Source: a virus. From it: a stretch of DNA of 28,161 nt. Below the pieces are notes generated by a model. It searched no databases. It worked only from the letters and a program-made list of their open reading frames with translations, and had not been told where the DNA came from. How positions within the stretch are numbered: position 1 is the first letter of the stretch; each line of letters starts with the position of its first letter. Made by a program: the position numbers and the translations under genes. This document shows, one piece after another, positions 15,877 through 21,098 of this stretch. The stretch lies in the IMG/VR virus record IMGVR_UViG_3300034375_009985, positions 1-28,161 of that record; one strand, written 5' to 3'.

Positions 15877-16431
15877 ATGGCTGGTTTACCACATTACCAA
15901 AATTCCATAAACTCGGTTAATAAATTTGAGCCGGTTTACCTTAACCAATTTGAGGTAAATGTTATACCACCTGCGGCTGTTTCTGGAGGTCCAGTGCTAC
16001 TAGAACAAGTTGTTTCTGTAAGTGGTTTGGATGTGGATAAAAACCCTAGCTTTGTATCTCAGAAATATAAGTTTGCAAAGAGGAACTATGCTGGAGGTAA
16101 ACCAGATACAACAACTCTGGATCTTGGTTTAAAGTTTACTGTCAACCTTGACGATGCTAATTCAATGTACGTCTTTAAGACGATGAGACAGTGGACCGAT
16201 TTAATTTACAATCCATTGACAGGGGCACAAGGAATTAAAGCAGATTATACTGGGACAATCGTTGTGTCTGTCTTCAATAAAAATGGTGATGTATTTAGGA
16301 GAATTACTCTTAAGGATTGCTTCCCACTAAAAGCAATTGATCCTATGGAGCTAGAATACGTAAATGGTACTACGCTCTATGAGATTAATATGACTTGGGC
16401 AGTTGATTACTGGGACGATTTATTCCTATAA
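15877..16431 (+). CDS. gp19: Tail tube protein (gp19-like), copy 1
   Basis: The inner tube of the contractile tail. At 184 residues it is close to T4 gp19 (163). Family features: N-terminal FEPVYLNQFEVNVIPP (17-32), the central KYKFAKRNYAGG, then RQWTDLIYNPLTGAQG, VVSVFNKNGDVFRRITL and the C-terminal DYWDDLFL. These are the alternating strands of the tube beta-barrel and the loop that packs between hexameric rings. It lies between the sheath and a close paralogue. Start ATG 15877 follows an A-rich leader with a weak AAGGA. Confidence 0.93.
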   Translation: MAGLPHYQNSINSVNKFEPVYLNQFEVNVIPPAAVSGGPVLLEQVVSVSGLDVDKNPSFVSQKYKFAKRNYAGGKPDTTTLDLGLKFTVNLDDANSMYVFKTMRQWTDLIYNPLTGAQGIKADYTGTIVVSVFNKNGDVFRRITLKDCFPLKAIDPMELEYVNGTTLYEINMTWAVDYWDDLFL

Positions 16432-16448
16432 AATATAACAAAGCATAA

Positions 16449-17027
16449 ATGGCAGGTTTACCACATTTTAACAACTCTAAGGCAGCAAGGAATAACTACG
16501 AGCCGGTTTTCTTAAACCAGTTTGAGGTTCTTATAACTCCACCTAACGGTATCAATCTTGCTAATACTACATTTAAGGGTGAGAATATACTTACTCAGCA
16601 AGTGAAGAGTATTTCTGCCTTACAAGTTGATATACAGCCAGCTGATGCTGTTACCCAATATTACAAGTTTGCTGAAAGAAGGTATGCTGGTGGTGAACCA
16701 TCTACATCTGATGTACAGTTTAATATGTCTTTCGAAGTGAACCTTAATGAGGACAATTCTATGGTTCTTTATAAGGTTTTAAGACAATGGTCTGATTTAA
16801 TTTATAATCCATTAACTGGAGCAATGGGTCTTAAAAGAGATTATGTTGGTTCTATGGTAGTTTCTGTTTTTAATAAACAAGGTGATGTCTTCAGGAGGAT
16901 AACACTGAACAATTGTTTCTTGGTAGAGCCAATTACTCCAATGAACCTTTCTTACGATACCGGAGATGCTCTTTATACCATTGATACTACATGGAAGTCA
17001 GATTACTGGAACGACCTATTCCTTTAA
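16449..17027 (+). CDS. gp19: Tail tube protein (gp19-like), copy 2 (paralogue)
   Basis: A clear paralogue of the preceding gene, 17 nt downstream. Both start MAGLPH and share LNQFEV, YKFA, RQW(T/S)DLIYNPLTGA, VVSVFNK, GDVFRRITL and a terminal DYW(N/D)DLFL. This copy has 192 residues, with an insertion of a few residues after ITPPNGINLANTTFKG (near 30-45) and divergent middle strands. The divergence is at protein level, so this is an old duplication, not a recent one. It may form a specialised ring (tail end or initiator) or a mixed tube; which copy is the major tube cannot be told from sequence. Confidence 0.9.
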   Translation: MAGLPHFNNSKAARNNYEPVFLNQFEVLITPPNGINLANTTFKGENILTQQVKSISALQVDIQPADAVTQYYKFAERRYAGGEPSTSDVQFNMSFEVNLNEDNSMVLYKVLRQWSDLIYNPLTGAMGLKRDYVGSMVVSVFNKQGDVFRRITLNNCFLVEPITPMNLSYDTGDALYTIDTTWKSDYWNDLFL

Positions 17028-17094: not shown

Positions 17095-18162
17095 ATGTCA
17101 AATATGTCCGATAATAACCTTTCTCCAGAAGAAATACTCAGGGAAAAAGAAATCGCTGGTGGTATTAAATATGATGAACCAGATGGCTTGAATCTGGATA
17201 CAGAGCTACAAGAAAATATTTATCCAGAAAAGCAGCCCGAAAATACAGAAGACCCTCTTGGTAACATTCATGAAGGTAAAGTTGAAAGTCAACCTTATGT
17301 GCAAGAGGCCGAATCTAAACCATTAGACCTTGGGTGGAAAAACCTCCCGATGGGAATGTTACCCTCTCAGGGATTATTTTATCCGGAAGCAACAAGAATA
17401 GCTATCAGACCAGCGGAGGTCAGGGAAATACGACAATTCTCAACAATAGATGAGGATGACATGCTAGATATAGATAACAAGCTTAATTTCATTCTTGAGA
17501 CATGCTGTAAAGTTAAGTTTGAGGAAAACGGAGGTCTTGTGTCTTACCGGGACCTAAAGCAAGAAGATAGGTTCTTTATCATCATGGCTATAAGGGACTT
17601 AACTTTTGTTAAGGGTGAAAACAGGATTATTGTAAACCCTGAAGGTGGATGCACTACAAAAGGATGCTCTGGGATGGAAGGTATTGAGCTTAGAACTGGT
17701 GTGTTGAGCAATTATGAGATGGATCAGGATTTGCTTAAATATTATTCCACTACCGAAAGAGGTTTTGTTTTCCCTATTAGAAGAATAGGGAAAACTATAA
17801 AAATGTCGCCACCGTCAATTGGTGTAACAAAAGCAATATCATCTTTTGTTGCTGATTGTGTTGCAAAGGGTGAAGAAGTCGACAAGAGTTTTATAAAAAT
17901 AGCTCCCTTTTATTTTAGTGATTGGAGAGGCCTTGATTATTTTAAAATCAAAGAGACTATGGTTTCTTCTTTGGAAGAATGGACAAAGGAGGAGTTTTCT
18001 GCTTATTTTGAATTATCAGAAAAAATCAAGATAGGAACAAATCTAAGGGTAAGAGTAAAATGTGATTCTTGCGGTGCTGGGGAGGTCACCGCTCCAATTT
18101 ACTTTCCCTCCGGGTTCAGATCTCTTTTCGTTATTTCAGATATCTTTAGAGAATTATTTTGA
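17095..18162 (+). CDS. gp26-like baseplate/tail-assembly protein with zinc ribbon
   Basis: A 355-residue protein resembling the T4 gp26 family (Pfam T4_baseplate type). Recognisable segments: LPSQGLFYP (89-97), QFSTIDEDDMLDIDNKLNFILETCCK (114-139, cited in two parts: QFSTIDEDDML and IDNKLNFILETCCK), and DLKQEDRFFIIMAIRDLTF (153-171). Four cysteines in two pairs, C186/C191 and C323/C326, could bind zinc. Residues 1-75 are acidic and probably disordered, absent from T4 gp26 (208 aa). ATG 17095 or 17104 may be the true start. The last codons read TTA TTT TGA; a +1 slip there joins the next frame (see 18157-18163). It lies between tube genes and a tape-measure-like gene, the usual place of a tail assembly chaperone. 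Confidence 0.65.
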   Translation: MSNMSDNNLSPEEILREKEIAGGIKYDEPDGLNLDTELQENIYPEKQPENTEDPLGNIHEGKVESQPYVQEAESKPLDLGWKNLPMGMLPSQGLFYPEATRIAIRPAEVREIRQFSTIDEDDMLDIDNKLNFILETCCKVKFEENGGLVSYRDLKQEDRFFIIMAIRDLTFVKGENRIIVNPEGGCTTKGCSGMEGIELRTGVLSNYEMDQDLLKYYSTTERGFVFPIRRIGKTIKMSPPSIGVTKAISSFVADCVAKGEEVDKSFIKIAPFYFSDWRGLDYFKIKETMVSSLEEWTKEEFSAYFELSEKIKIGTNLRVRVKCDSCGAGEVTAPIYFPSGFRSLFVISDIFRELF

Positions 18163-18337
18163 TCTCAAGTTCCGTCTTTGGAGAGAACACTCAATAGATC
18201 CTAATTGGCTAGAGTCAGTTCCTTTTTATGAATATCAGATTTGGTTAGATAAATTAAACGACTCGGTTGAAGAGGAGAACAAGAGAAAACTCCAGGAGAG
18301 TGGCCAGACCGAGGTCTTTAGCTTTAACAATAAGTGA
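18062..18337 (+). CDS. Downstream frame of the gp26-like gene; likely +1 frameshift extension (gp51-position ORF)
   Basis: Frame 2 is open from an ATG at 18062, overlapping the gp26-like gene by 101 nt, to TGA at 18335-18337. The overlapping part reads as low-quality protein (MILAVLGRSPLQFTFPPG). From 18161 onward it reads like a real helical domain: DLKFRLWREHSIDPNWLESV, then FYEYQIWLDKLNDSVEEEN. There is no good start codon between 18075 and 18161. The simplest reading is that this domain (58 aa) is made as a C-terminal extension of the upstream protein by +1 frameshift, giving a 413-residue fusion. Alternatively it starts at ATG 18062 or GTG 18074 as a separate gene in the position of T4 gene 51. 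The -DPxWLESxPxxE- pattern resembles second-frame domains of tail assembly chaperones. Confidence 0.6.
   Translation: MILAVLGRSPLQFTFPPGSDLFSLFQISLENYFDLKFRLWREHSIDPNWLESVPFYEYQIWLDKLNDSVEEENKRKLQESGQTEVFSFNNK
18157..18163 (+). other. Candidate +1 ribosomal frameshift site (TTT-TGA-T)
   Basis: The zero frame ends TTT TGA. A run of four T lets the Phe tRNA shift forward from TTT (18157-18159) to TTT (18158-18160) with perfect re-pairing, and reading continues GAT CTC AAG in frame 2. The slow UGA stop in the A site is the same arrangement as the prfB +1 site (CTT-TGA-C). A purine-rich AGAGAA (18148-18153) lies just upstream, a weak candidate stimulator. Confidence 0.55.
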
Positions 18338-18384: not shown

Positions 18385-19803
18385 ATGGTAAACGGATCTG
18401 ACAAATTGCTAAGAGAACTTACTACTCTTTCTTCAAATTTTGATTCACTTTATCAAGAGCTTAAGGAATCTACTAAGGCTAATATAGAATCCTCCGAGAG
18501 TATAAAGAATCTGACAAGTGATATTAAAAAAGGAGCTATGCCCAGCGGGCAAGATTTGGAAAAGGCTTTTAAGGGATTTACCGAGTCTTTTACTAAAACG
18601 ATAACTTCTGAGAATGATAAGCTCATCAGCGATTTAAAGGATAGTATTTCCAAGTCTCTTATTGAATCCTCTTCTAATTTTATTTCAAATTTACCTAGTC
18701 AAATTGCACAAGTAAAAGCCGGAGAGCCAATAGATTTTAAAGGTATCCTGAGTAGTGGTGTAAAAAATGTTTTCTCTGATGTTATACCAAAAATTCCTGG
18801 ACTGAAACAGGGTGGTACTGTTGAGGGTGATGGTATTGCGGTTGTTGGTGAGGGTGGACCAGAGCTTGTTAAGTTAGATAAAGGCAATAAAGTTAGGACT
18901 ATGGAGCAGCAGATGATGGATATGATGCTTGAGGAAGAGAGAGAAAAAAATATAAAACTTGGAAGAATTGTACAACAAAACCCATTGCAAGCTGCACTTT
19001 CTAAGATTACAACCGACTCAAAGCTTATTAGCGAGTTTATAGAGTATTCTAAAAATGACCTAGACGAAAGTGACCAGCAGGAGCTTTTGGCTGATCCTGA
19101 TTACCTAAAGGATGAATTTGATTATTTCCTCAGCGAAAGAGACCGAGAATATTTTACTCAAGAGGATCTTCAAAAGTTATCTTCGGCCTCGAATGCTCCT
19201 AAGGTAGAGACGATAAAGGATACAGAGGTTCTCAAGACTCCAAACCCAAGCGTTCCTAAAGTGGAGACAATAAAGGATACCGAAGTTCTCAAGACCTCAA
19301 CACCAGTTGTACCTCAAAAATCTGAGGTGACGCCTAAACAAGATTTGGTTTCAGAACAATCTAAACTTAAGTCAGGTATATCCGGCGTAAATGATATAAC
19401 AGCTTTGGTTAAATCAAAAATAGAAGATGCAGGGAAAAAAGGATCTGATGCTATAAGTCAAGTTGTAAGTACCTCGCAAGAGCTAAAGGAGAGAGTAACA
19501 AAACCATTTAATAAAGAAAGCGAAGGTAGTGGTGGTTCTAGTGCTAATAAATCTTCTAATGCTTTGGAAAAAATTAATCAAGCAACCGCAGCTCTGAAAG
19601 AATCCTCTTCTCCAACAAGCAGTACACCAGCAAAAAAGTCAAAAGAATCTTCTGCATCAAGTACTCCTGCATCTTCCGACACAATGACTTCTAAGGACGT
19701 AAAGGAGATGAAATCTTTGCTTGCTTCGATATACCAAGCACTTAGATCACCGCTAACAATTGTTAACGACGTTCCGTTTAGACCAACGTCAAACAATTTC
19801 TAG
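18385..19803 (+). CDS. Tape-measure-like tail protein
   Basis: 472 residues. The clearest mark is GGTVEGDGIAVVGEGGPE followed by LVKLDKGNKV (143-170), the short Gly-rich beta motif (GEaGPElv.l..G..V) seen in many phage tape measure proteins. The N-terminal 140 residues are amphipathic helix (LRELTTLSSNFDSLYQELKE and similar). The rest is Ser/Lys/Glu-rich and likely elongated, with a 19-residue tandem repeat (PKVETIKDTEVLKT) at about 272-308 and a low-complexity Ser/Thr tail near 410-445. Position directly after the putative tail assembly chaperone pair supports a tape measure. If all residues spanned the tail, helical rise predicts about 70 nm, shorter than T4. It could instead be another extended tail-lumen protein. 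Confidence 0.45.
   Translation: MVNGSDKLLRELTTLSSNFDSLYQELKESTKANIESSESIKNLTSDIKKGAMPSGQDLEKAFKGFTESFTKTITSENDKLISDLKDSISKSLIESSSNFISNLPSQIAQVKAGEPIDFKGILSSGVKNVFSDVIPKIPGLKQGGTVEGDGIAVVGEGGPELVKLDKGNKVRTMEQQMMDMMLEEEREKNIKLGRIVQQNPLQAALSKITTDSKLISEFIEYSKNDLDESDQQELLADPDYLKDEFDYFLSERDREYFTQEDLQKLSSASNAPKVETIKDTEVLKTPNPSVPKVETIKDTEVLKTSTPVVPQKSEVTPKQDLVSEQSKLKSGISGVNDITALVKSKIEDAGKKGSDAISQVVSTSQELKERVTKPFNKESEGSGGSSANKSSNALEKINQATAALKESSSPTSSTPAKKSKESSASSTPASSDTMTSKDVKEMKSLLASIYQALRSPLTIVNDVPFRPTSNNF
19198..19311 (+). repeat. 57-nt tandem duplication inside the tape-measure-like gene
   Basis: Two units with starts at 19198 and 19255 encode PKVETIKDTEVLKT plus a variable linker. The DNA copies differ mostly at third codon positions, so the duplication is old and the peptide has been kept. 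Confidence 0.75.
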
Positions 19804-19885: not shown

Positions 19886-20446
19886 ATGGAAGAAGCATTT
19901 ATTGATCCCTCTGACTTTTTCACCAAAGAAGATCTAGCAAAAGGAGATTATTGGATAGCAAGTCCAAGCCTTAGCAGAGTTATTACCTCGGGTGATAATT
20001 TCAAAGAAATAGACGAAACCTTTTATTCCATTAAGGATAGGAAAATGGATAGGGTCTATCTAGAAATGGCAAAGGTGTGGGCTACTAATTCTTATTGCGA
20101 AAGGATGAAAGTTGGTAGTCTTATTGTGAAAGATAAATCTATTATATCTGACGGCTATAACGGTTCACCCACAGGTTTTCCAAACGTCTGCGAAGATTCA
20201 TCTCACGTCACTTTACCTCATGTATTACATGCAGAGGCTAATGCGATTACTAAGTTGGCTAAGAGTACACAAAGCTCTGATGGTGCGACACTTTATGTTA
20301 CAGTATCTCCTTGCTTTGAATGCTCTAAACTTATTATTCAGAGTGGGGTAAAAAGATTAGTGTTTAAGGAGTTATATAGAAAACTCGAATCGCTTAAGTT
20401 TTTATTCGACGCTGGAATTGAACTTGTTAGATTAAATAATAAATAG
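19886..20446 (+). CDS. dCMP deaminase
   Basis: Zinc-dependent deoxycytidylate deaminase, converting dCMP to dUMP for dTMP synthesis. The active-site zinc motifs are complete: H115-A-E117 (HAEANAI, E117 the proton shuttle) and P142-C143-F-E-C146 (SPCFEC). The upstream NGSPTGFPN (92-100) is the nucleotide-binding loop of the family, including the S/T-G-x-P element. The core begins at DRVYLEMAKVWA (55-66); residues 1-50 are an extra N-terminal segment not usual for the enzyme. An in-frame ATG at M54 (20045-20047) would give a conventional length, but the longer frame has coherent composition, so I kept 19886. It heads the operon with the sigma factor 34 nt later. T4 and many large phages encode such an enzyme; no thymidylate synthase or dCMP hydroxymethylase is in the window. 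Confidence 0.93.
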   Translation: MEEAFIDPSDFFTKEDLAKGDYWIASPSLSRVITSGDNFKEIDETFYSIKDRKMDRVYLEMAKVWATNSYCERMKVGSLIVKDKSIISDGYNGSPTGFPNVCEDSSHVTLPHVLHAEANAITKLAKSTQSSDGATLYVTVSPCFECSKLIIQSGVKRLVFKELYRKLESLKFLFDAGIELVRLNNK

Positions 20447-20480: not shown

Positions 20481-21098
20481 ATGGCAAAAGAAAAGAATAT
20501 TCAAGTTTTAGCTGAAAGCTTCATTCAGACTAAAGGAGAGAGGGAATTCCGGCCTCTCTATGAAAGGGTAAAACCCGGAGTACTAAACCACTGTTATGGA
20601 ATTCTTAAAGACTTTGAGTTGGCCGAGGATGCTTTCTTAAATGCAATGTCAAAAGTCTGGCAGAAGATAGATCAATATGACAGCGAGAGGGGTAACTTTT
20701 CTACCTGGTGTTATAATATAGCTAGGAACGAATCTCTTTTACTTCTTAAGAGCAGGAAGCGATATATTTCACAAACTTCTGAAGAGATGGAGTACACTTC
20801 GGCGAAAGCTGAGGAAAGAAACCCTTCTTATGATATAGAAGACGACCCTCTCTGGGAATTTCTTTGTGGAGGAAATGATATTGACGATGTTTATGAACAA
20901 GTCATCGACGAGATCAAAGACCTTCCCCTTATCTATCGGGATATTATGATTGATCGTGAGATTAATGGAATGAAATACAAAGATATAGCCGATAAGTATG
21001 GAATAAAGAAGAGGTCTATCGCTACAAGAATTAGAAGAGCCCGTACTAAAATCCGAAAGAAAATGGAGGATGCTATGGGAAAATCTGATTTTAAATAA
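20481..21098 (+). CDS. ECF-like RNA polymerase sigma factor
   Basis: 205-residue sigma70-family protein with only regions 2 and 4. Region 2 spans about 23-95: LYERVKPGVLNHCYGILKD, then AEDAFLNAMSKVWQKI (48-63) and NFSTWCYNIARNESLLLLKS (72-91, the -10 melting/recognition helices). Region 4 (about 137-195) holds VIDEIKDLPLIYRDIM and the helix-turn-helix MKYKDIADKYGIKKRSIATR. It would redirect host RNA polymerase to phage promoters, playing the role that gp55 has in T4, although it is ECF-like rather than gp55-like. The GATATATA boxes in the window are candidate targets. A perfect AGGAGGT (20445-20451) lies 29 nt upstream and a GGGGG (20468-20472) 8 nt upstream of ATG. The stop overlaps the next ATG by one base. 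Confidence 0.9.
   Translation: MAKEKNIQVLAESFIQTKGEREFRPLYERVKPGVLNHCYGILKDFELAEDAFLNAMSKVWQKIDQYDSERGNFSTWCYNIARNESLLLLKSRKRYISQTSEEMEYTSAKAEERNPSYDIEDDPLWEFLCGGNDIDDVYEQVIDEIKDLPLIYRDIMIDREINGMKYKDIADKYGIKKRSIATRIRRARTKIRKKMEDAMGKSDFK

Follow-up and report, generated by a model that had tools for sequence, protein, structure and literature searches.

A T4 gp26-like phage gene with a conserved gp51-like extension in the +1 frame and a probable shift site at UUU_C

Comparative analysis of a phage gene related to T4 gene 26 suggests that two tail chaperones are made from one start, in the manner of lambda G and GT, through a +1 slip of the ribosome at UUU_C; we assign to this reading a probability of about 0.7. 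The fusion itself, of a gp26-like protein with a gp51-like domain encoded in the +1 frame, is real on comparative evidence. The gene lies in a 28-kb virus record (hereafter the window, i.e. the whole stretch of 28,161 nucleotides that was analysed), which also carries terminase and large tail sheath genes and comes from a T4-related phage with a host probably among the Bacteroidetes. We infer that most ribosomes stay in frame 0 as far as the stop at 18160 and so make a gp26-like protein of 355 amino acids, and that a fraction of them slip +1 at UUU_C (18103-18106), where the P-site tRNAPhe would move from UUU to UUC while the A site holds a minority codon, CCC in the window and CGC, CGT or CAA in relatives. 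The slipped ribosomes would then read 76 further codons, ending in the gp51-like helical domain, to give a protein of 413 amino acids, and refolding of an mRNA hairpin just behind the ribosome would probably stimulate the slip. The role of the short form would be to coat the tape-measure protein, that of the long form to recruit tail tube subunits; binding of the putative chaperones to these two partners is suggested by gene order, protein architecture and the lambda precedent. The features concerned, all on the + strand, are as follows.

15877-16431 and 16449-17027, +: tail tube genes in tandem, ahead of the gp26-like ORF (PHROG tail tube, each at E about 2e-9)
17095..18162, +: gp26-like frame-0 ORF, the putative 'G' product, 355 aa (PHROG_150; PF12322 in relatives; structure model)
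18071..18092, +: hairpin in the mRNA, stem 18071-18076 / 18087-18092, loop 18077-18086
18081-18085, +: SD-like GGAGG in the hairpin loop
18103..18108, +: proposed +1 shift site TTT_C(CC), P-site TTT to TTC, C 18106 skipped
18107..18337, +: +1-frame extension after the proposed shift, 76 codons and stop (dual-coding signal, fusion translation)
18124..18129, +: CTT_TTC, runner-up shift site (CTT in 33/34, TTC in 34/34)
18128..18334, +: gp51-like helical domain, +1 frame (PHROG_634, profile match, helix prediction)
18157..18162, +: TTT_TGA, the frame-0 stop and the shift site of an earlier sequence-only reading; present, with a last codon that varies among relatives
18385..19803, +: probable tape-measure gene, downstream (PHROG tape-measure matches weak, E 0.025-0.05)

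The two protein parts and their conservation

The 355-amino-acid frame-0 ORF ends in TTA TTT TGA, and the +1 frame is then open for 58 codons, to 18337, as the sequence-only reading had described. Also upheld is its proposal of a +1-frame fusion in which a gp26 homologue gains a second domain, the gene lying between those for tail tube and, probably, tape measure. The order of tail tube, gp26-like/+1 fusion and weak tape-measure match fits the placement of G/GT-type genes; in Cr30, a single small gene separates the gp51-like ORF from the annotated tape measure downstream. The two tandem tail tube genes of the window have diverged from each other. Just downstream of the tail genes are a dCMP deaminase gene (19886-20446) and a gene for an RNA polymerase sigma factor (20481-21098; PHROG_1740, E 6.9e-23). 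At the other end of the window, a long collagen-like repeat (221-800 on the + strand, 99-707 on the - strand) is open in more than one frame and on both strands, and probably belongs to a fibre protein.

Profile comparisons indicate that the frame-0 protein is a homologue of gp26 and the +1 extension a homologue of T4 gp51. The former matches PHROG_150 (T4 gp26, 'baseplate hub') with an E value of 9.5e-6; the frame-0 proteins of relatives match the Pfam family T4_baseplate (PF12322) at 1.5e-10 at best, and profile-profile comparison with gp26 profiles gives E 1e-4 and a probability of 57%. Frame-0 and +1 parts were structure-modelled separately. The frame-0 model has a pLDDT of 85, falling to 42 in the tail, at the end of the overlap, and its BFVD matches are baseplate hub assembly proteins of T4-like phages. 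The +1 domain, predicted to form two long helices (7-21 and 33-58, pLDDT 81), matches PHROG_634 (T4 gp51, 'baseplate hub assembly catalyst') at E 1.5e-5 in the window and is matched in 24 of 31 relatives; against the gp51-like domains of T4-like phages, profile-profile comparison gives E 1.8e-9 and a probability of 96%. Sequence and fold searches of the PDB returned no significant match, including none to a tail chaperone, the HK97 tail chaperone 2OB9 appearing in the fold search at E 6.2 only.

Relatives were collected by tblastn and by scans of collections: close ones (71-98% identity), intermediate ones (31-70%), one Bacteroidetes MAG contig and distant ones (about 20-36%), the last comprising Lak, huge phages and phages of Chryseobacterium, Flavobacterium, Tenacibaculum and Sphingomonas. 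Among close, intermediate and distant relatives alike, the second domain lies in the +1 frame after the gp26-like ORF wherever the contig continues, and some 40 distinct relatives keep this continuation, Lak megaphages and others with identities as low as about 20% among them; in one of the two Lak phages examined, it requires that TAG be read as Gln. Searches that used two very divergent alignments (A1 and A2) as queries gave no usable pattern. In the +1 extension of the 735-kb phage LR756501 (L037, 3823-4126), about 25 extra residues, resembling a duplication or an insertion, stand before a second VFSVF-like segment. No conserved start codon for the +1 extension was found in the window's clade, and seven relatives (L124, L136, L133, L137, L145, L150 and L037) have no ATG, GTG or TTG in the +1 frame ahead of the conserved segment. 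The downstream domain that had been predicted from the single sequence is conserved in relatives and of the gp51 family; and alignment of relatives, proposed as a check, upheld a conserved +1 continuation and a start that is not conserved. TTT_TGA, on the other hand, is not conserved throughout: the last frame-0 codon may be TTT, CTT, ATT, TTA, GAA, AAG or AAA.

Dual coding and the position of the slip

Comparison of relatives indicates that the +1 frame is translated in the overlap, before the frame-0 stop. Over the last 10 codons, nucleotide diversity at frame-0 positions 1, 2 and 3 is 0.41, 0.13 and 0.11 among 34 non-redundant relatives. Counted on a parsimony tree, changes at these positions number 28/9/11 there versus 21/20/33 just upstream (Fisher p 0.003); in the region whose +1 reading is beyond dispute they number 220/129/63. 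The number of substitutions per codon, about 13 upstream, drops to 2.9 within the overlap. Variability passes from the third to the first positions of frame 0, which are the +1 wobble positions. Since the position that varies freely is the +1 wobble, ribosomes would already be in the +1 frame before the stop, and TTT_TGA is excluded as the main site. The +1 sequence upstream of the stop, which had been judged poor-looking, turns out to be the opposite: its last 15 or so codons (S-x-L-F-S-L-F-Q-I-S-L-E-N-Y-F) encode residues among the most conserved of the family.

The onset of this constraint was located in 25 representatives by testing frame-0 third bases, codon by codon, against random synonymous codons; the codons are drawn independently and relatedness is ignored, the flanking null regions serving as control. 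Counting codons back from the stop, there is no excess conservation between -24 and -20, and little or none between -45 and -30. The excess sets in at -19 (TTT, 25/25), is weak at -18 to -16 and strong from -15, so that the +1 frame appears to be under selection from about 18 codons before the stop; a second block of synonymous constraint lies upstream, at codons -27 to -25 (xxG GAG GTC). At codons -18 to -12, frame-0-synonymous changes outnumber +1-synonymous ones by 20 to 8, and +1 reading could therefore begin a few codons later.

At the onset, all 33 relatives have TTT followed by CCC, CGC, CGT or CAA. Codon -18 is CCC in 21 of 21 cases when it encodes Pro, CGC or CGT in nine of nine when it encodes Arg, and CAA in the three with Gln, so that the first base, C, alone is common; in the relatives' genes, CCC makes up 16% of Pro codons and CGC plus CGT 12% of Arg codons. 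TTT_CGT occurs in four relatives. TTT_C is found at the same place in 10 of 14 distant or divergent relatives, among them Lak (TTT_CAA), Sphingomonas phage PAU, Tenacibaculum phage pT24 and huge phages (TTT_CCC) and MaF61 (TTT_CGA); it is absent from L038, L039, L043 and L234. Within the window's 7608 codons, the proposed site is the only in-frame TTT_CCC. TTT_C is a plausible +1 site, in that the P-site tRNAPhe could re-pair with its cognate codon UUC while a minority codon stands in the A site, and it is probably the exact place of the slip. A shift there would yield a 413-amino-acid fusion with the junction between APIYF and PPGSDLFSLFQ; the predicted junction peptide of the window gene is ...APIYFPPGSDLFSLFQ..., or, written longer, ...EVTAPIYFPPGSDLFSLFQISLENYFDLK.

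Three other explanations have to be weighed against a shift at TTT_C. The sequence-only reading had the ribosome slip +1 at TTT_TGA while the stop codon occupies the A site, as at prfB. TTT_T does permit perfect re-pairing, and most close relatives have NTT_T. However, the +1 frame is under selection some 18 codons ahead of the stop, distant relatives end frame 0 with non-slippery codons (GAA TAA, AAG TAA or TTA TAA), and no SD sequence lies 3 nt upstream, which also undoes the prfB analogy; where TTT_TGA is conserved, it is because of the +1 Phe codon. The predicted fusion length of 413 amino acids stands, with the junction placed at TTT_C by the best model rather than at the stop, where we consider a slip highly improbable. 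A stop-site shift entertained for the Lak phages is unneeded, TTT_CAA being present there too. Hardly more credible is a separate gene for the +1 ORF, with a start of its own (e.g. GTG 18062) or reached by reinitiation. An ATG in the gp51 frame stands two codons past the gp26 stop in 69 of 69 cyanophage-like loci, and gp51 of P-SSM2 is annotated in this way. In the window's clade, however, no start is conserved and seven relatives have none before the conserved segment, which itself begins inside the overlap; close to the junction, no start is seen in the gp51 frame of HTVC008M or LPCS28 either. The ATG claimed at 18062 is in fact a GTG, and the ATG at 18060 belongs to a different frame, which a TGA closes at once.

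The remaining candidate, CTT_TTC, lies seven codons after TTT_C and was an early working hypothesis for the main site. The shift there would be either +1 (CTT to TTT, prfB-like) or -2 (a tandem slip, TCT_CTT_TTC to CTC_TTT). CTT is kept in 33 of 34 members and TTC in 34 of 34 despite their being minority codons, both tRNAs would re-pair after a -2 shift in most members, the place is homologous to the -1 heptamer T_TTT_TTY of T4-like phages, and +1-synonymous changes predominate only downstream of it. But third bases are already constrained upstream (xxC at -15, xxT at -13), as if these codons were read in +1; nor is TTC a slow codon, and distant members have ATT, ATA or GTC at this place. It was demoted because the constraint begins at TTT_C and dual coding explains the conservation of CTT_TTC; we regard it as unlikely.

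Upstream of TTT_C, the constrained block at codons -27 to -25 coincides with a hairpin loop; in the window the hairpin is GCGGTG(CTGGGGAGGT)CACCGC, and its stem ends 10 nt before TTT. The stem is AGCTGTGA(..)TCACAGCT in L113, ATCGAGG(..)CCTCGAT in L137 and GGGGAT(..)ATCCCC in L150. Under synonymous-codon randomisation the hairpin is extra stable across relatives, with a mean z of -2.2 for 26 sequences versus -0.45 to +0.19 for nine control windows; the window's own hairpin is unexceptional, at only -0.8. Pairing of the stem in a fixed register is moderate (79% versus 30-63% when slid, with few double changes), in part owing to register shifts of the stem from lineage to lineage. The loop GGAGG is kept in 28 of 33 relatives. 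It lies 17 nt upstream of TTT, outside both spacings at which an SD sequence stimulates frameshifting, 3 nt for +1 and 9-14 nt for -1 (PMC5009743). No shared RNA structure was found downstream, where z-scores scatter from -3.5 to +0.9. Our best guess is that the 5' stem loop refolds and pushes the ribosome forward, as proposed for T4 gene 60.

T4 and the -1 relatives

T4 genes 26 and 51 are on opposite strands. T4 gp51 matches the gp26-type profile from end to end and has the gp51 domain in frame with it, while gp26 is without that domain; T4 gp51 would thus be a ready-made fusion and gp26 the short form. At the place of the heptamer, T4 gene 26 has TTC TTT. Gp51 of the T4 type is present in about 1,340 phage records. 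In T4, gp26 and gp51 are listed as baseplate hub and hub assembly chaperones, the function of gp51 being unknown (PMC3004832); gp51 is absent from the phage particle, and the review literature holds T4 to be without G/GT frameshifting. Our comparisons suggest that the two are counterparts of G and GT separated by gene duplication, and a fused form encoded as a separate paralogue would explain this apparent absence. The link drawn by the sequence-only reading between gp26/gp51 and the tail-chaperone scheme is therefore supported, but its treatment of T4 26/51 as one region is not.

Other phages, namely P-SSM2, S-PM2, HTVC008M, phiM12, KVP40, phiW-14, Cr30, LPCS28, Mendera and Ah1, encode the gp51 domain in the -1 frame, and their gp26 ORF ends at an in-phase T_TTT_TTY, the canonical -1 heptamer; this is found in all 69 distinct cyanophage-like loci. 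The picture is less clear in these phages than in the +1 clade, and reinitiation may contribute, because many of them have the above-mentioned ATG just after the gp26 stop. In Vibrio phage D506 (L239, 2124-2160) the heptamer is lost, CTT_TTC stands instead and a TAATG overlap is present; its gp51 may be a separate gene. In Cronobacter phage LPCS28 (L236, 2229-2393) and Aeromonas phage Ah1 (L238, 2259-2426) the gp51-like domain is unannotated, perhaps having been missed because there is no junction ATG.

If this reading is right, frameshifting, be it -1 or +1, persists in many relatives of T4, and the old question of T4 hub and tail assembly becomes directly testable. It would also correct gene calls in many phage genomes, where the gp51-like domain is missed or assigned a start codon, and would offer a stop-independent bacterial +1 signal for mechanistic study. 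In the open-access literature, to which our search was confined (subscription papers and preprints being outside its scope), no earlier report linking gp26/gp51 to frameshifting or tail chaperones was found.

Comparison with known systems

Frameshifting in lambda G/GT and its counterparts in long-tailed phages is usually -1, with -2 in Mu and probably +1 in HSTV-2 (PMC5009743). Listeria phage PSA, which had been invoked as a +1 precedent for tail chaperones, uses +1 frameshifting for its capsid and tail-shaft proteins rather than for a tail chaperone. Like lambda G/GT, the window gene would give a short and a frameshift-extended product and follows the tail tube genes, before a probable tape measure; it shares with genes of this type a conserved extension in another frame without its own start and a conserved slippery sequence (TTT_C, or T_TTT_TTY in the -1 sister group). 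Unlike them, its parts belong to the T4 gp26 and gp51 families, and the shift would be +1, at UUU_C, with an upstream hairpin. The domains are homologous to those of T4 gp26 and gp51 (PMC3004832), but T4 has two genes on opposite strands where the window phage has one gene and a frameshift.

As for the signal itself, influenza A PA-X shifts at UUU before CGU. As in PA-X and prfB, a P-site codon would slip +1 with re-pairing, and UUU_CGU of PA-X is the TTT_CGT of four relatives. However, PA-X has no evident stimulator, whereas a conserved 5' hairpin is present at the window site, and prfB shifts at CUU_U and needs a stop codon and an SD sequence 3 nt upstream. In T4 gene 60, too, a hairpin lies upstream of the shift, and by refolding at the mRNA exit it could push the ribosome forward (PMC5009743); there a long coding gap is bypassed, whereas one base would be skipped in the window, where it is the position of the hairpin that suggests its role. 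We see an even chance for the most far-reaching reading: a bacterial +1 signal with a new layout in which UUU_C precedes a minority sense codon, 10 nt past a hairpin with a GGAGG loop, stop-free and with the hairpin as refolding motor as in T4 gene 60; and a G/GT pair made in three ways across the T4 superfamily, by -1 frameshifting, by +1 frameshifting and, in T4, by gene duplication.
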